From an uncultured Clostridia bacterium (GTDB lineage Bacteria; Bacillota; Clostridia; Christensenellales; Borkfalkiaceae): a stretch of 42,354 nt of DNA. Made by a program: the position numbers and the translations under genes. The stretch covers positions 1-42,354 of the forward strand of contig CALVWU010000004.1 of the NCBI GenBank assembly GCA_944367955.1. Direction: 5' to 3'. Positions 25,870-33,268 of the stretch are shown here, piece after piece; position 1 is the stretch's first letter; every line of letters begins with the position of its first letter. A model generated the notes under the pieces. It saw only the letters and a program-made list of their open reading frames with translations. It was not told the origin of the DNA and did not search any database.

Positions 25870-27024
25870 TCAGATTTTTACAATCTCTAACGTTCCTAAT
25901 GCCTCGTCTACGAGTGCTTCGACGTCGAGCTTTGCTTCCTCGGCCTCCACATCCGAAAGTTTGGGTTTTGTTACGGGGTGTTTGGGCAAAAATACCGTGC
26001 AGCAGTCTTCGTACGGCAAAATAGAAATATCATACGCGCCCATCGCCTTACTGCGAGCGATAATCTCGTTTTTATCAAACCCGCACAGCGGCCTTAAAAC
26101 GGGCAGGCTGCGTATTACGGCATTCGAGGACGTCATGCCCTCTATCGTCTGGCTGGCCACCTGTCCCAGGCTTTCGCCCGTAATTATGCACTGAGCCCCG
26201 CACTTTATTGCAATTTTTTCGGCAATGCGCATCATAAAACGCCTTAAAAGCGTTACCATATATTCGCCGTTGCACTTTTTGTGTATCTCTTCCTGTATGT
26301 GCGTGACTTTGATTATGTTCAAAGTAGTTCCGCAAGTATAGCGCGAAAGCACCTCGGCAAGCTCGATAACCTTTTCCTTGGCCTGCATGTTGGTATACGG
26401 ATAGCTGTGAAAATGAAGACATTCTATGCTCATGCCTCGCTTTGCTATCATATGGCCCGCCACAGGACTGTCGATACCGCCGGAAATGAGCAACAAGCCC
26501 TTTCCGGCCGAACCCACGGGCATGCCGTCGGCACCCTTTATAAACGACCCGAAGACAAGCGTTGTGCCGTTTTCGCGTATATCGATATTCACCAAATTCT
26601 GCGGTTCGTGCACGTCCACCGACAGGCCTTTGTATACGTCGAGCAGTCTGCCGCCGATTTGCGCACTCACCTGCATGGAATTCAGCGGAAAAGTTTTATC
26701 CGCACGGTGTGTTTCCACCTTAAATGTGCCGGATTTCTGAGAAACTTCACTGGCTGCGGCAAAAATTTCGCCCATATCGCTTTTAACTTTCAGCGCAACC
26801 GACAGGGTATGTATTCCGAACACCTTTAGCAGACGCGAAATAATATCTTCCGTTTCGCTTTCATCAAAATTTTCTATTAAATATCTGCCGCTCTGACGAC
26901 GGATCTCGTGCTTAACGCCCTTTAACGCTCTTTCCATGTTTACAGCAAAGATCCGCTCGAAATATCCCCTGTTTTTGCCCTTCAAATGCAGCTCGCAGTA
27001 TCTTATTATTATAACCTTTTCCAT
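25870..27024 (-). CDS. thiI: tRNA 4-thiouridine synthase ThiI
   Basis: Adenylates and thiolates U8 of tRNA, and may feed thiazole synthesis. The N-terminal ferredoxin-like and THUMP domains span about residues 1-165 (RYCELHLKGKNRGYFE near the start). The PP-loop ATPase motif SGGIDSPVAGHMIAKRG follows, with CIITGESLGQVASQT in the C-terminal half. There is no C-terminal rhodanese domain, as in Bacillus ThiI, so sulfur must come from a partner desulfurase. That partner is the nifS gene immediately upstream, one base away. 384 residues, normal for this type. Confidence 0.95.
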   Translation of the reverse strand: MEKVIIIRYCELHLKGKNRGYFERIFAVNMERALKGVKHEIRRQSGRYLIENFDESETEDIISRLLKVFGIHTLSVALKVKSDMGEIFAAASEVSQKSGTFKVETHRADKTFPLNSMQVSAQIGGRLLDVYKGLSVDVHEPQNLVNIDIRENGTTLVFGSFIKGADGMPVGSAGKGLLLISGGIDSPVAGHMIAKRGMSIECLHFHSYPYTNMQAKEKVIELAEVLSRYTCGTTLNIIKVTHIQEEIHKKCNGEYMVTLLRRFMMRIAEKIAIKCGAQCIITGESLGQVASQTIEGMTSSNAVIRSLPVLRPLCGFDKNEIIARSKAMGAYDISILPYEDCCTVFLPKHPVTKPKLSDVEAEEAKLDVEALVDEALGTLEIVKI

Positions 27025-27025
27025 G

Positions 27026-28150
27026 CTAACCCATTATTTCCAATCTGTTTTTTACCAATTTATTGAGAATTGCAGCGGCCCGAACAACCTCTTCAATTGT
27101 GTTATCGGGTGAAAACGACAGTCGCAAAATACCGTCTGCCGTATGCTCGTTTACTCCGCAGGCCAAAATCACGCGAGAATAGCGTTTCTTTTCGTTGGAC
27201 GAACAGGCCGACCCCGTGCCTATAATCAGTCCTGCGTCGTCGGCCTCATGCAAAATCGTTTCGCCTCGCACACCGGCAGCAGCCACGGTCAATATATACG
27301 GCGAACCGCCGTCGGGTGAAATTTTTGTAAACAATTCTTTATCCAATTCTCCCCACAGCGTCTGCCACAACTGACGCACATGGTTAAAATTTTCATTTAA
27401 ATGCTCATATCGCTTACATGCCGCGCACGAAAACATCATTATACCGAACACGTTTTCGGTGCCGCTGCGCATGCCGTTCTCCTGACCGCCGCCGTAAATA
27501 TAGGGTTTTAGTGAAAGCGTCTTTCGTCTGATAAGCGCGCCGGTACCCTTCATTCCGCCTATCTTGTGCGCCGACACCGAATAGAGATCTACATCCGCGC
27601 CAAGTTTAAACGGTATCTTGCCGAATGCCTGCACTCCGTCGGAATGAAACACAGTGTTCTTGTTTTTGCGCTTGACCATGGCCGCAATTGCGTTAATATC
27701 GTTGACCGCACCCGTTTCGTTGTTTACATGGATTACCGACACAAGCGAGGTCTTTTCATCGACAAGCTTTAAAAGCTCTTCAATATCTACGCTGCCGTCA
27801 CAGTTGAGGGGTGCGAAGCGCACTTCGATTGCACGCTGTTTAAGCTCGGAGACAGCCGAAAAGACGGCCGAATGCTCGCCGAGCGTGGTAACGACGTTGC
27901 CCCTTCGCCCGGCACAGAAGATAGCATGGTTGTCCGCCTCGGTTCCGCACGACGTAACGGTTATATCGAAATTGTCGTTGGCTATGCAGTGCAGAATATC
28001 CTTTTTTGCACGTTTTAAAGTCAAATGCAAATTATAACCTTCCGCGTAGAGCGCGGAAGGATTATAATAATTTTCATAAATAAATTGTTTTGCCTTGTCC
28101 AAGCATTGTCCGTCGGGCCTTGTGGTCGCGGCATTGTCGAGATAAATCAT
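27026..28150 (-). CDS. Cysteine desulfurase (NifS/IscS-like, partner of ThiI)
   Basis: PLP enzyme that moves sulfur from cysteine to a protein persulfide. The 374-residue protein opens MIYLDNAATTRPDG and has GTEADNHAI, HVNNETGAVNDI and HSDGVQAFGK. The PLP lysine is in SAHKIGGMKGTGAL and the catalytic Cys in GTGSACSSNEKK. Pairing with thiI matches the NifZ-ThiI arrangement of Bacillus, which supports a role in 4-thiouridine synthesis rather than general Fe-S assembly. Its start overlaps the carB stop by one base (TGATG). Confidence 0.93.
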   Translation of the reverse strand: MIYLDNAATTRPDGQCLDKAKQFIYENYYNPSALYAEGYNLHLTLKRAKKDILHCIANDNFDITVTSCGTEADNHAIFCAGRRGNVVTTLGEHSAVFSAVSELKQRAIEVRFAPLNCDGSVDIEELLKLVDEKTSLVSVIHVNNETGAVNDINAIAAMVKRKNKNTVFHSDGVQAFGKIPFKLGADVDLYSVSAHKIGGMKGTGALIRRKTLSLKPYIYGGGQENGMRSGTENVFGIMMFSCAACKRYEHLNENFNHVRQLWQTLWGELDKELFTKISPDGGSPYILTVAAAGVRGETILHEADDAGLIIGTGSACSSNEKKRYSRVILACGVNEHTADGILRLSFSPDNTIEEVVRAAAILNKLVKNRLEIMG

Positions 28151-31100
28151 CAGATTTCAATTATACCTTTAAAGGCCTGCTTTACGGGGCCGTCTACTTC
28201 GGTAGTGCCGTCGTCGTTTATTCTTACGAACAGATCGCCGCCCTTTACTTTTACGGTGATTATTTCGCCTCGGCGACAATCTCCGCGATCTATTGCGGCA
28301 AGCGCGGCAGCAACGGCCGCCGTACCGCACGACCATGTTTCGCCGTTCACTTTGCCGAACACGCGCATTCTTACGGTGACATTGTTCACCACTCTCACGC
28401 ATTCGATAAAATCGGCATTCTGATGCAGCGCGTTATCGGCAGCGTTTATTTCCTGCGTAAAGTCTTCGAAATCAACGTCGTCTATTTTATCGCAGAATGT
28501 GACAAGGTGATTTTTACCGAGGGCTATCTTATATCCGGAAGAACCGTTGCCTCCCCACTTTTTATACGAGGCAAGTTCGGGCAATTCAATTTTGCTCATG
28601 CGCGCGCAACCGAGGTTGACGCATACCGAGCTGGCTTCGTTATTGAAGCACGAAACCGTAAGCTTTACAACCCCGCCGTCGCTTTCAAGCGTAACTTCCT
28701 CGCCCTGCACCATCTTGCTGTCATAAAGATATTTTGCGGCTATCCTTAAAGGGTTTGCCGCCATGCCCGCATCGGAGCCGTCGCGGTTGAATACCCTTAC
28801 TTTTGCGTCGGCAACGTCCGACTTTTCAATAAGAATTATTCCGTCGCCGCCTATCGCATAGTGCCTGTCGGCAAAGTTTATCGCAAGCGATTCGGGACAG
28901 GTGATATGTCCCTCCATGTTGTTAAAGAATATATAGTCGTTGCCGCACGAATGCATCTTGTTGAATTGCAGTTTAAGCTTTTCGGTTCTTAAATGATTTA
29001 TATCCACAAGCTCGGTATTGAACTGATTATACCTGCCGGCTATAACGTCGGCAAGGGCGTTTGTGGTATCGAGCGACGTAAGAACGGTTATGCCGAGAAG
29101 TATTGCATGGTGATGCAGCGAAATATAGTTGGTTATTGACTCTATGTCGGTTTTGCCCGTATAAACGATATAGTCTATTTTACCTTCGTCCATCAGCTTG
29201 AATATCTCGTCGTTGGACGAAAGCCTTGCAACCTCGGTGCATTCTATGCCGAGACTGCGTATAACGTTGGCCGTACCCTTTGTTGCATAGAAAGTAAGCC
29301 CCAAATCGGCAAATTTTTTAACTATATTTACAATTTCGAACTTGTCCTGATCGTTTATTGTAAAATAGATACCCGAAGGGTTTTGTTTGGTGGGATGCTT
29401 CATATTGAAGCCCGCCGAAACAAGCCCCTTGAACAGAGCCTCTTCTATGGTTTTGCCTATGCCGAGCACTTCGCCCGTGGACTTCATTTCGGGGCCGAGC
29501 TGCGAGTTTACGTCGTTGAGTTTTTCAAACGAGAACACAGGCACTTTTACCGCAACATAGGGCGAATTTTTATAAAGCCCCGTGCCGTAACCCAAACGCT
29601 TTAACTTTGCGCCCACCATTATTCTGGTGGCAAGATCCACCATGGGTACACCCGTAACCTTTGAAATGTACGGAATCGTGCGCGATGCCCTGGGGTTGAC
29701 TTCGATAACATACAGCTCGTTGTGATAGATGAGATACTGTATATTTATAAGCCCCTTCGTCTTCATGGAAAGCGCGAGATTTGTGGATATTTCCACAACT
29801 TTTTTAAGCATCGCGTCGCTTAAACTGTATGGCGGATATACGGCGATTGAGTCGCCGCTGTGAACGCCCGCGCGCTCGATATGCTGCATGATGCCGGGAA
29901 TGAGAACATCCACGCCGTCGGAAATGGCGTCCACTTCGAGCTCGGTGCCCATAAGATACTTGTCGCAGAGTACGGGGTTTTCGATATTCTGCGCCAAAAT
30001 TACATCCATGTAACGCTCTATATCGTTCTGCGTAAAGGCAATGGTCATGTTTTGACCGCCTATAACATACGAGGGGCGCAGCAACACGGGATAACCCAGC
30101 GTTTCGGCCGCATGCACGGCCTCTTCCTTGGTCATTACGGTAAGCCCCTTGGGACGCGCTATGTGGAATTTTTCCAACAGCTCGTCGAACCTCTCCCTGT
30201 CTTCGGCAAGGTCGATGGAGTCGGCGGGAGTGCCGAGTATCTTGACGCCCTTTTTATCGAGATAGCCGCAGAGTTTTATGGCCGTTTGACCGCCGAAAGT
30301 TACCACCACGCCGTACGGCTTTTCGACGTCGATGACGTTTTGTACGTCTTCGGGAGTAAGACTTTCAAAGTACAGCCTGTCGGCGGTATCGAAGTCGGTC
30401 GAAACCGTTTCGGGATTGTTGTTTATTATTATAACTTCATAGCCCAGCCTCTTCAAAGCCCAAACGCAGTGAACGGAAGAATAGTCGAACTCTATGCCCT
30501 GGCCTATTCTTATGGGGCCCGATCCTATTACTATTATCCTCTTCTTTTTGTTTTTGCGGCTTTCTACAACATAGGGAAGGGCTTCGTCGTGCTCCTTTTC
30601 GTCGTATGTCGAATAGAAATATGGCGTCTGCGCGGCGAACTCGGCGGCGCAGGTATCAACCATCTTGAACGCTGCGTCTACATGCTTTGGCAGAGCATTG
30701 CCCGAAATGCGTTCGAGGGCCTTATCGGGATAACCCATCTTTTTGCCCTTGATGTATTCGGCTTTGCTCAGCTTTTTGCCCGCGATGCCGGCCTCGTAAT
30801 CGGAAAGATTTTTAAGCTTATTTAAGAACCATTCGTCTATTTTGGTTATCGCATAGATCTCGTTTATGTCGAATCCGCGCTTTATGGCCTGATACACGAC
30901 GAACAGTCTTTCATCGGTAAGTTCGTGCAGCTTTTCGCGTATTTCGCCGTCGGAGAGTTCCTCCATTTTGGGCATGTTTAAGGTATCGAGCGAAATTTCG
31001 GCACCGCGCACGGCCTTCATGATAGCCATTTCAAAGCTTGTGCCTATGGCCATCACTTCGCCCGTGGCCTTCATTCTCGTGCCGAGCGTGCGCTTTGCAT

Positions 31101-32202
31101 ATAAGAATTTATCGAAAGGCCACTTGGGGAGTTTTACTACAACATAGTCCAAAGTAGGCTCGAAGCAGGCATAAGTTTTGCCGGTGACGTCGTTTTTGAT
31201 TTCGTCGAGCGTGTAACCGAGAGCTATTTTGGCCGCCACTTTGGCTATCGGATAACCCGTAGCTTTCGATGCGAGAGCGGACGAGCGCGAAACTCTTGGA
31301 TTGACTTCGATTACGGAGTATTCGAACGAATCGGGATTGAGCGCGAACTGGCAATTGCAGCCGCCCTCTATGCCCAACTCGGTTATTATATTTAAAGACG
31401 CCGTTCTGAGCATCTGATACTCTTTGTCCGAAAGTGTTACGGCGGGTGCGATGACTATCGAGTCGCCCGTGTGGATACCCACGGGATCGAAGTTTTCCAT
31501 GGAGCATACGGTGAGCACGTTGCCCGCGCCGTCGCGCAGCACTTCGAACTCTATCTCTTTCCAGCCGCCTATGTACTTTTCGATAAGCACCTGGGTTATG
31601 GGCGAAAGCATAAGGCCGTTGTGCGCTATAAGCCTTAACTCCTCTTCGTTATGGGCAACGCCGCCGCCCGCGCCGCCGAGCGTATATGCGGGACGGACTA
31701 TAACGGGATAGCCGCCTATCTTTTCGGCGACGGCCACGCATTCGTCCACGGTGTAGGCGATGTCCGAAGGAACGACGGGCTGGCCTATCTTGTTCATGGT
31801 TTCCTTGAACAGCTCCCTGTCCTCGGCCCTGTCGATGGAATCGACGTTTACGCCGATAAGCTTTACGCCGTATTCATCGAGGAAGCCCTCTTTTGCAAGT
31901 TTGCAGCCGAGAGTGAGACCGGTCTGTCCGCCGAGAGAGGCCAAAAGGCTGTCGGGCCTCTCCTTTATGATTATTCTTTTAAGCGTTTCAACCGTGAGCG
32001 GTTCGAGATAGATCTCGTCGGCAAGCGCGCTGTCGGTCATTATCGTTGCGGGGTTGGAGTTGCAGAGTACAACGTTCAGCCCTGCATCCTTCATCACGCG
32101 GCAGGCCTGCGCGCCTGCATAATCGAATTCGGCCGCCTGACCTATGACAATGGGGCCGGAACCTATTACGAGTACTTTCTTTATGTCTTCTCTCTTAGGC
32201 AT
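28150..32202 (-). CDS. carB: Carbamoyl phosphate synthetase large chain fused to a degenerate DapF-like domain
   Basis: Residues 1 to about 1070 are full-length CarB: two ATP-grasp halves (VLVIGSGPIVIGQAAEFDY near the N-terminus, its repeat VIGSGPIRIGQGIEFDYSS in the middle) and the C-terminal MGS-like allosteric domain. Residues about 1077-1350 form a complete diaminopimelate epimerase fold (KMHSCGNDYIFF, VFNRDGSDAG, GETWSCGTAA). Against Escherichia coli DapF the second catalytic Cys is kept (C1292 for C217), but the first is Ala1148 (MAANPLRI instead of the CGNG motif). E208-R209 become G1283-K1284 and N157 becomes K1230. N11, N64 and N190 equivalents remain. Epimerase activity is therefore unlikely. 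The frame is continuous, overlaps carA by eight bases and touches nifS, so this is not an assembly join visible here. Confidence 0.93.
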   Translation of the reverse strand: MPKREDIKKVLVIGSGPIVIGQAAEFDYAGAQACRVMKDAGLNVVLCNSNPATIMTDSALADEIYLEPLTVETLKRIIIKERPDSLLASLGGQTGLTLGCKLAKEGFLDEYGVKLIGVNVDSIDRAEDRELFKETMNKIGQPVVPSDIAYTVDECVAVAEKIGGYPVIVRPAYTLGGAGGGVAHNEEELRLIAHNGLMLSPITQVLIEKYIGGWKEIEFEVLRDGAGNVLTVCSMENFDPVGIHTGDSIVIAPAVTLSDKEYQMLRTASLNIITELGIEGGCNCQFALNPDSFEYSVIEVNPRVSRSSALASKATGYPIAKVAAKIALGYTLDEIKNDVTGKTYACFEPTLDYVVVKLPKWPFDKFLYAKRTLGTRMKATGEVMAIGTSFEMAIMKAVRGAEISLDTLNMPKMEELSDGEIREKLHELTDERLFVVYQAIKRGFDINEIYAITKIDEWFLNKLKNLSDYEAGIAGKKLSKAEYIKGKKMGYPDKALERISGNALPKHVDAAFKMVDTCAAEFAAQTPYFYSTYDEKEHDEALPYVVESRKNKKKRIIVIGSGPIRIGQGIEFDYSSVHCVWALKRLGYEVIIINNNPETVSTDFDTADRLYFESLTPEDVQNVIDVEKPYGVVVTFGGQTAIKLCGYLDKKGVKILGTPADSIDLAEDRERFDELLEKFHIARPKGLTVMTKEEAVHAAETLGYPVLLRPSYVIGGQNMTIAFTQNDIERYMDVILAQNIENPVLCDKYLMGTELEVDAISDGVDVLIPGIMQHIERAGVHSGDSIAVYPPYSLSDAMLKKVVEISTNLALSMKTKGLINIQYLIYHNELYVIEVNPRASRTIPYISKVTGVPMVDLATRIMVGAKLKRLGYGTGLYKNSPYVAVKVPVFSFEKLNDVNSQLGPEMKSTGEVLGIGKTIEEALFKGLVSAGFNMKHPTKQNPSGIYFTINDQDKFEIVNIVKKFADLGLTFYATKGTANVIRSLGIECTEVARLSSNDEIFKLMDEGKIDYIVYTGKTDIESITNYISLHHHAILLGITVLTSLDTTNALADVIAGRYNQFNTELVDINHLRTEKLKLQFNKMHSCGNDYIFFNNMEGHITCPESLAINFADRHYAIGGDGIILIEKSDVADAKVRVFNRDGSDAGMAANPLRIAAKYLYDSKMVQGEEVTLESDGGVVKLTVSCFNNEASSVCVNLGCARMSKIELPELASYKKWGGNGSSGYKIALGKNHLVTFCDKIDDVDFEDFTQEINAADNALHQNADFIECVRVVNNVTVRMRVFGKVNGETWSCGTAAVAAALAAIDRGDCRRGEIITVKVKGGDLFVRINDDGTTEVDGPVKQAFKGIIEI

Positions 32203-33268
32203 TATACTTACCCTCCGTCATATTTTTAATGAACTTGTCGAAAAGGAATGATGCGTCCTGAGGCCCGCCGCAGGCTTCGGGATGGAACTGAACGGTATAC
32301 GCGTTAAGCTGGGGATATTCGAAGCCTTCGCAAGTGTTGTCGTTGGCGTTGACATAGCTCAACTGCCCGATCCCTTCAAGACTGGACGATATGACTTCGT
32401 AGCCGTGGTTCTGGCTGGAAATATACACCCTGCCAGTTGCAAGACACTTTACGGGCTGATTTGCGCCGCGGTGACCGTACTTCATCTTTTTAGTCTTGCC
32501 GCCCATAGCGAGCGCAAAGAGCTGATGGCCGAGACAGATGCCGAATACGGGAAGTTTTCCCGCAAGTTTTTTAAGATTTGCTATCACTTCAACGTTCTCT
32601 TCGGGATCGCCGGGGCCGTTGCACAGCATCAGTCCGCGGGGCTCCAAGGCAAGTATCTGTTCGGCGGTGTATGATGACGGCACCTTTATGCAGTAGCAGC
32701 CGCGCTTTACAAGTTCGCGCACGATGTTGTCCTTCGCACCGAAATCCCAAACAACTACTTTCAGGCCAGAAGGATCGCCGTAATATTCGGGCGCGGTGCA
32801 GCTTACGCTCTTTACCGCGTTCTTTATTGTATACGACTTCACATCGGAAAAATCGACAAGCGGTCTTGTGGTTATTGCGGCATTCATAACGCCCGACTCC
32901 CTTACTATTTTTGTAAGCTCGCGCGTATCGATGCCGTACACGCCGATTATACCGTTATCTTTAAGGTATTTATCGAGCGTATCCTCGCACCTGAAATTTG
33001 AGGGCATGTCGCACTTTTCCCTTACCACATAGGCCGAAACCCACGGCTTTTTACTTTCAAAATCGGGCGTCACGCCGTAATTTCCTATCAAAGGGAATGT
33101 TTGCGTTACTATCTGCCCGTAATAGCTGGGGTCGGTGAGCGTTTCGATATAGCCCGTCATGCCGGTGGTAAACACCAACTCGCCTATAACGTCGCCGCTT
33201 GCGCCGAAGCGCGAACCTACAAACTGCTTTCCGTTTTGCAGCGTTAAATAAACTTTGCCGTTTTCCAT
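32195..33268 (-). CDS. carA: Carbamoyl phosphate synthetase small chain (glutaminase)
   Basis: Releases ammonia from glutamine and channels it to CarB. The N-terminal CarA domain shows GELVFTTGMTGYIETLTDPSY cut as usual, and DTRELTKIVRESG. The class I glutamine amidotransferase domain has GPGDPEE, the nucleophile Cys in FGICLGHQLFALAMGG, and the His-Glu pair in QFHPEACGGPQD. 357 residues, normal. AAGGAAAGG precedes the start. It lies 37 bases after argF and overlaps carB by eight bases. Its place among arg genes suggests that this CPS serves arginine synthesis. Confidence 0.96.
   Translation of the reverse strand: MENGKVYLTLQNGKQFVGSRFGASGDVIGELVFTTGMTGYIETLTDPSYYGQIVTQTFPLIGNYGVTPDFESKKPWVSAYVVREKCDMPSNFRCEDTLDKYLKDNGIIGVYGIDTRELTKIVRESGVMNAAITTRPLVDFSDVKSYTIKNAVKSVSCTAPEYYGDPSGLKVVVWDFGAKDNIVRELVKRGCYCIKVPSSYTAEQILALEPRGLMLCNGPGDPEENVEVIANLKKLAGKLPVFGICLGHQLFALAMGGKTKKMKYGHRGANQPVKCLATGRVYISSQNHGYEVISSSLEGIGQLSYVNANDNTCEGFEYPQLNAYTVQFHPEACGGPQDASFLFDKFIKNMTEGKYNA

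Follow-up and report, generated by a model that had tools for sequence, protein, structure and literature searches.

A single gene in a contig from an uncultured Clostridia bacterium (GenBank assembly GCA_944367955.1, CALVWU010000004.1) encodes CarB, the large subunit of carbamoyl-phosphate synthase (CPS), joined in frame to a C-terminal domain derived from the diaminopimelate (DAP) epimerase DapF. This contig, numbered C4 in our analysis of the 1.35 Mb, 85-contig assembly, is referred to here as the window, that is, the whole stretch of 42,354 nucleotides that was analysed. Judged by its sequence and those of its relatives, the fused domain qualifies as a conserved, non-catalytic homologue of DapF under purifying selection. 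On balance, we favour the view that such dead DapF domains serve CPS as a module of some kind, acting on its regulation or its conformation.

The fused gene is one unbroken frame (28150-32202, reverse strand) of 1350 residues, comprising a complete CarB followed by a full-length DapF domain (Table 1). Membership of the CarB part in its family is established by two models, NF003671 (1446 bits against a cut-off of 599, residues 1-1055) and TIGR01369 (1401 bits against 1027, residues 2-1052), and the DapF equivalog model TIGR00652 matches residues 1079-1348 over its full length (159.5 bits, cut-off 114.65). Pfam likewise recognises CPS domains, an MGS-like domain, and two DAP_epimerase repeats in the fused protein, and 16 of the 17 PDB matches to the fused domain are named diaminopimelate epimerase (best E 9.4e-38), the other being an O-ureido-serine racemase. 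A frameshift or assembly error behind the fusion was ruled out, as the same frame was seen again in many assemblies, and the 181 fused rows collected show that the join is no product of chance. These matches over both parts bear out the in-frame union of two complete proteins that the initial annotation of this DNA had described.

Residues are given here in the usual DapF numbering. In addition to the two catalytic cysteines, we followed N11, N64, N157, N190, E208, and R209, which we take to be DapF pocket sites, some of them as named in the initial annotation. The window's domain lacks the cysteine pair that active DapF requires, with alanine in place of the first cysteine (Ala1148) and the second one kept (Cys1292). 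None of the pocket residues N157, N190, E208, and R209 is retained, and the CGNG motif reads AANP; equivalents of N11, N64, and H159 are still present. Together, these changes support the loss of the epimerase centre from the window's domain. The combination of Lys157 with Gly208 and Lys209 is common to the window, four named loci that read AAN, and one locus with serine at position 73 (L107). The initial annotation had correctly named the GCG-encoded alanine, the lysine for N157, the Gly-Lys pair for E208-R209, and the retained Cys1292, but made no mention of the phenylalanine at N190 or the altered CGNG motif. The numbers C73 and C217 are those found in passages of PMC4227774.

The closest named species, within the best 80 of 423 loci, are Candidatus Coproplasma avicola (80% domain identity) and C. 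excrementipullorum (79%), and from these names we infer that the window belongs to Candidatus Coproplasma, a genus listed by NCBI taxonomy under Clostridia, Eubacteriales incertae sedis. One Clostridia locus (L109) has 81% domain identity to the window, and more distant named matches among the same best 80 include Candidatus Borkfalkia and Gallimonas. Alanine at position 73 is fixed in the genus, being found in all 31 informative fused Coproplasma rows (one more row is cut before the site). Across the best 80 of the 423 named loci, which reach past the genus, this position is alanine in 70, glycine in 6, serine in 2, and threonine in 2 (L156 and L162, each of which also has aspartate at N64). 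A CarB search of 12 Coproplasma genomes found the protein in 6, always in fused form; one further gene runs off the end of its contig, and five genomes gave no match. In the family, nine genomes, five of them of the genus and six of them more than 95% complete, are without a CarB match at E 1e-30 (G009, G017, G018, G035, G229, G078, G138, G168, and G251), an apparent loss of CPS.

Substitution rates point to purifying selection on the domain. The ratio of nonsynonymous to synonymous substitution rates (dN/dS) could be used for 78 of the 127 close pairs formed within the genus, and comes from a simple count method in which dS was often above 1, so that values are rough; the median is 0.033 for CarB and 0.134 for the fused domain, with a domain maximum of 0.25. 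For the window and G029, the corresponding values are 0.019 and 0.084. In the 16 pairs that also have a separate dapF, dN/dS is 0.032 for CarB, 0.140 for the fused domain, and 0.152 for the separate DapF. In addition, the genus domains keep their full length to the C-terminal IEI, no stops occur in fused rows among the matches listed, and no separate, frameshifted arrangement of carB and dapF was seen in the genus. The proposal, first made in the initial annotation, that the domain has lost its epimerase centre, kept its fold, and escaped neutral decay holds up against the residue changes, the full-length match, and dN/dS.

The window's genome also has a separate, intact dapF, on contig C40, which retains the two cysteines along with the listed pocket residues. 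More broadly, both cysteines are present in 82 of 83 separate DapF rows (the best-scoring one per genome, second copies left out), and the remaining row is cut at a contig end. One genome in which no fused gene was seen (G056) has, besides an intact dapF, a second separate DapF-like gene (L072) with serine at both cysteine positions.

Loss of the epimerase centre and possession of a separate dapF go together well beyond the genus. We checked 140 of the 141 listed fused genomes of the order and class for DapF, leaving out G028, further genomes of the genus, and 17 of the phylum, and called a domain intact when C73, C217, E208, R209, N64, N157, and N190 were all present. An intact fused domain without a separate dapF was found in 62 genomes (53 of them at least 90% complete, by hand count), a broken fused domain with a separate dapF in 55, and a broken one without a separate dapF in 19. 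With kinship ignored, the association has a Fisher p of 1.8e-17, and two of the 59 genomes scored as having a separate dapF (G042 and G230) rest on fragments. With kinship taken into account through independent pairs on the CarB tree, 10 supported pairs compared presence of Cys73 with absence of a separate dapF, of which on average 6.5 went the expected way and 0.1 the opposite way (median p 0.031, range 0.008-0.22). The 62 genomes with an intact fused domain and no separate gene show no other DapF in their assemblies, and in them the fused domain should be the working epimerase. The initial annotation had held that relatives with both cysteines in the fused domain would make the window's copy a single damaged allele; such relatives do exist in other families (66 of the 140 fused domains are fully intact) and none was found in the genus, and the copy is not a damaged allele. 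The same distribution indicates that the fusion is older than the loss of Cys73, and that the protein was probably bifunctional first, since relatives with both cysteines exist in other families and none in the genus.

DAP dehydrogenase makes meso-DAP and so bypasses DapF. The enzyme was looked for in 55 of the 140 genomes, and is present in 13 of the 19 with a broken domain and no separate dapF, most of which would thus have a route to meso-DAP. It is also present in 11 of 20 genomes with an intact domain and no separate dapF, in 6 of 12 with a broken domain and a separate dapF, and in 3 of 4 with both an intact domain and a separate dapF. DAP dehydrogenase was rejected as a complete account of the domains that are broken where no second dapF exists, since its 13 of 19 is set against 11 of 20 for intact domains. 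Nine intact genomes lack both the dehydrogenase and a separate dapF, and all of them match LysA (two below cut-off, one as a fragment); the fused domain is presumed active in these nine because it is the sole recognised route to meso-DAP there. One sister pair agrees well with this picture: G098 has an intact domain and no dehydrogenase, and G118 (70% complete) has glycine at Cys73 and the dehydrogenase. In G670 (locus L294), a genome 99% complete, Cys73 is kept and most other pocket residues are changed; neither a separate dapF nor a DAP dehydrogenase was matched.

Our collection comprises 181 fused rows, one per genome and including the window, in which position 73 is cysteine in 74, alanine in 67, glycine in 21, and serine in 18, with one row cut; alanine or glycine thus makes up 88 of the 106 changed rows. 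No bulky residue was seen at this position in the fused rows or the named loci. Four of the six amino acids that lie one base from a cysteine codon are bulky. At least 11 changes of state at position 73 are counted on a tree built from the CarB part (138 genomes), and we infer that these changes are losses, a direction read from the retention of Cys73 in separate DapF genes, as the count itself gives none. Among the 71 genomes of the 140-genome set with alanine, serine, or glycine, 51 leave N64, G74, N75, N157, N190, E208, R209, and C217 all unchanged. In a large dead clade that lies outside Coproplasma and comprises 33 rows at a median identity of 0.53, conservation of eight pocket columns exceeds that of random columns (p 0.00013). 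Thus, in most dead lineages the pocket looks to be in use without catalysis. In the window's genus, it looks to have been remodelled or released: across the 31 Coproplasma rows, N64, N75, and H159 are invariant and C217 is changed once, N190 and R209 are mostly changed, and N157 and E208 are changed in one subclade. A different route to the loss of the epimerase centre is indicated by the sequences of G072 and G238 (loci L219 and L210), in which Cys73 is kept, C217 is serine, and E208/R209 are changed; both of these genomes have DAP dehydrogenase.

Perhaps the domain senses nothing and is a structural passenger on which CarB stability or CPS oligomerisation has come to depend. We consider this possible but somewhat doubtful. 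In its favour, all 6 CarB-positive genomes among the 12 Coproplasma genomes searched are fused, and in this genus the pocket is changed and unconserved against random columns (p 0.14) while the domain remains constrained; a scaffold, however, need not keep a pocket, and most Cys73-less copies over all families do (51 of 71, and the dead clade at p 0.00013). An unlikely alternative is that the domain has become a new, one-base enzyme, catalysing a lyase reaction, an elimination, or an irreversible isomerisation on DAP or another amino acid. Cys217 is indeed kept in the window, in 30 of the 31 Coproplasma rows, and, beyond the family, in 44 of the 54 copies without Cys73, and passages of PMC8142540 describe an irreversible racemase with one cysteine changed to threonine and elimination by single-cysteine mutants of glutamate racemase. 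However, the alanine or glycine that replaced Cys73 in 88 of 106 changed rows is unable to act as acid or base, and Cys217 itself is serine, alanine, or asparagine in the other 10 of the 54.

Slow neutral decay of a domain made redundant by the arrival of a second dapF would fit the joint occurrence of Cys73 loss and a second dapF, the faster evolution of the domain relative to CarB, and the drift of the Coproplasma pocket, but we regard it as very improbable and reject it for the domain as a whole, as dN/dS of at most 0.25 over the 78 pairs contradicts it, no stops were seen among the matches listed, and the domains of the genus run at full length to the C-terminal IEI. Least credible of all is that the window's domain still epimerises DAP through Cys217 and another base, for which the retained Cys217, N11, N64, and H159 equivalents might speak, as Cys73, N157, N190, E208, and R209 are all changed, the genome has an intact separate DapF, and E. 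coli DapF with both cysteines changed is inactive according to passages of PMC4227774.

The favoured regulatory or conformational role rests on the position of the domain after the allosteric domain of CarB, its maintenance, and the pocket that most dead copies retain, with E. coli DapF as a precedent. The sequences show that DapF became attached to the CarB C-terminus, mostly from a single origin, and that genomes with a second dapF have usually lost the first catalytic cysteine of the fused domain but kept the domain, outside Coproplasma usually with the rest of its pocket. We propose an inherited bifunctional CPS-epimerase whose epimerase part repeatedly turned into a catalytically dead module of CPS. 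Freed from epimerase duty, the domain may persist by serving CPS, its most likely role being that of a module directly following the allosteric MGS domain. For lineages that have lost Cys73 alone, diaminopimelate is a plausible natural ligand, and would couple the supply of pyrimidines, and with them uridine diphosphate (UDP)-sugars, to the supply of diaminopimelate for peptidoglycan. It is less plausible for Coproplasma, including the window, where the pocket has changed further and the domain probably binds something else or acts by structure alone.

In an alignment-column table of 179 fused proteins, the MGS loop STS-KGR...D...RR is found in all 71 rows in which C73, E208, R209, and C217 are retained, and in 40 of the 108 other rows; the remaining 68 of those 108 have an altered loop, typically of the form YTG...H, which the window also shows. 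Searched by itself against the PDB, the MGS part produced weak matches only. According to passages of PMC6245113, CPS effectors bind the C-terminal domain, and control of the E. coli enzyme by uridine monophosphate (UMP) involves Thr977 and Lys993. It is tempting to speculate that the epimerase domain of a bifunctional CPS-DAP epimerase that arose in Clostridia has repeatedly become, through loss of one cysteine, a diaminopimelate sensor that sets carbamoyl-phosphate supply, and through it pyrimidine and UDP-sugar supply, to the supply of cell-wall precursors, and that it replaced the MGS nucleotide-effector loop in a large clade including Coproplasma. We offer this fuller scheme as tentative, and possible rather than probable.

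Several observations weigh against the interpretation we favour. In the 16 pairs, the fused domain has a dN about 3.8-fold higher than CarB's and 1.27 times as high as the separate DapF's. Across the 31 Coproplasma rows, pocket columns show no more conservation than random ones (p 0.14), so the initial annotation's idea of amino acid binding is weakened for this genus, and elsewhere the conservation of pocket columns could come partly from fold constraint. In four of the 140 fused genomes, a separate dapF coexists with a fused domain that is intact, and under the strict definition of intact the independent-pair test falls to 9 pairs (5.2 against 0.1, median p 0.0625). DAP dehydrogenase is not clearly commoner in genomes with a broken domain alone than in the other classes, and 6 of those 19 genomes also lack a dehydrogenase match (completeness: G312 96%, G221 91%, G427 65%, G692 88%, G457 65%, G670 99%). 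With regard to the MGS loop, 41 of 43 altered-loop rows belong to one clade on the CarB tree, and for that reason the change is, as far as the tree can tell, essentially one main event; in addition, three unfused CarBs that were compared show a third form of the loop, so the form common among fused proteins need not be ancestral.

The CarB-DapF fusion is widespread in Clostridia and, on the evidence of a DapF tree, mostly of single origin. Wider searches, with an alignment of MGS and DapF (A1) as query, found both parts in one frame in at least 88 of the 297 genomes from the order (two partial), at least 57 of 391 genomes of the class (limit 1e-100; four also in the order set), and, outside the class, at least 17 genomes among 398 of the phylum (limit 1e-110). 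In a FastTree phylogeny of 264 DapF rows, built with the listed catalytic columns removed and containing some weak branches, the label switches between fused and separate only 3 times: there is one main fused clade, with the pair G567/G616 outside it and the separate gene of G341 inside it. Fused pieces in G005, which has alanine at Cys73, and in G019 were left out by length or upstream rules. Separate, side-by-side genes, the arrangement that the initial annotation had named as telling against a true fusion, were found in three genomes of other families (G204, locus L242; G373, L298; G592, L299), in which carB, a stop, and dapF follow one another in one frame; their dapF genes are not the closest kin of the fused domains. 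Adjacent carB and dapF were therefore not upheld as a direct precursor of the fusion, as these dapF genes belong to a single group of 11 unfused genes that lies apart from the fused clade. G204 carries its second, unfused carB and the intact separate dapF that follows in addition to a fused carB with serine at Cys73.

The gene directly upstream of the fused one is carA by two models (NF009475, 436 bits against a cut-off of 221; TIGR01368, 413 bits against 307.35). Between 25870 and 33268, carA, carB-dapF, a cysteine-desulfurase-like gene, and thiI run head to tail on the reverse strand, with an overlap of 1 base between carB-dapF and the desulfurase-like gene. This order, and the overlaps that join the first three genes, suggest a single operon with translational coupling.

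Table 1. Features of the fused gene and its neighbours in the window (positions in the window; residues of the 1350-residue protein).
Feature	Position	Strand	Basis
CarA, CPS small subunit, directly upstream; 8-base overlap with carB start	32195..33268	-	NF009475, TIGR01368
CarB core (residues 1-1055; CPS large subunit)	29038..32202	-	NF003671, TIGR01369
MGS-like allosteric domain of CarB (residues 956-1041)	29080..29337	-	Pfam PF02142
Short CarB-DapF linker (residues 1056-1078), stop-free, frame unchanged	28969..29037	-	
DapF-derived C-terminal domain (residues 1077-1350)	28153..28974	-	TIGR00652; PDB DapF chains
Ala1148 (GCG) at catalytic Cys73 position	28759..28761	-	script and alignments
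Lys1230 at N157 position	28513..28515	-	script
Phe1265 at N190 position	28408..28410	-	script
Gly1283-Lys1284 at E208-R209 positions	28351..28356	-	script
Cys1292, kept second catalytic cysteine (C217)	28327..28329	-	script
Cysteine-desulfurase-like gene	27026-28150	-	NifS-type models, all below cut-off
thiI	25870-27024	-	model score above cut-off

These fusions have consequences for genome annotation and for the study of protein evolution. In many Clostridia the tail of carB is the only dapF found, and a search based on short genes could call a deficiency in lysine or peptidoglycan precursors. Dead copies, in turn, could be called epimerases, and the domain in the window does score above the cut-off of the DapF equivalog model. 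The fusions also form a natural series, from an apparently working fusion to a Cys-less domain with its pocket and on to a remodelled pocket, in which the passage of an enzyme domain into a regulator or structural part can be tested. Control of CPS by diaminopimelate, if real, would link nucleotide synthesis directly to cell-wall synthesis.

Both parts of the protein belong to known families, and dead regulatory domains are of a known kind. Among the open-access papers listed by searches aimed at a CarB-DapF fusion or a dead DapF, a body of work that leaves most subscription papers and all preprints outside, we found no report of the fusion; passages of PMC9026213 mention DapF and the pyridoxal phosphate (PLP)-dependent DapF2, and in them no such fusion. 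Compared with CarB as known from TIGR01369 and PDB 1BXR, the window's protein has all CarB domains (973 bits to 1BXR) and adds a 274-residue C-terminal DapF domain; the second half of its MGS domain has diverged, so that the alignment stops at residue 1016 of 1BXR, whereas that of a fused CarB with intact DapF (G049) reaches residue 1054. Compared with DapF (TIGR00652), the domain matches over the full length, but differs in its first catalytic cysteine, in four pocket residues, and in being fused to CarB. Control of CPS by UMP, inosine monophosphate (IMP), and ornithine, as described in passages of PMC6245113, likewise acts from the C-terminal end, as may be the case in the window's protein; there the MGS-like domain acts alone, whereas here a DapF-derived domain follows it. 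A further parallel is found in E. coli, where, according to passages of PMC4227774, the catalytically dead DapF(C73&217A) still binds and stimulates RppH. In both cases DapF would be a catalysis-independent partner of another enzyme, in E. coli as a separate and naturally active protein acting on an RNA pyrophosphohydrolase, and in the window as a putative, covalently attached module of CPS.

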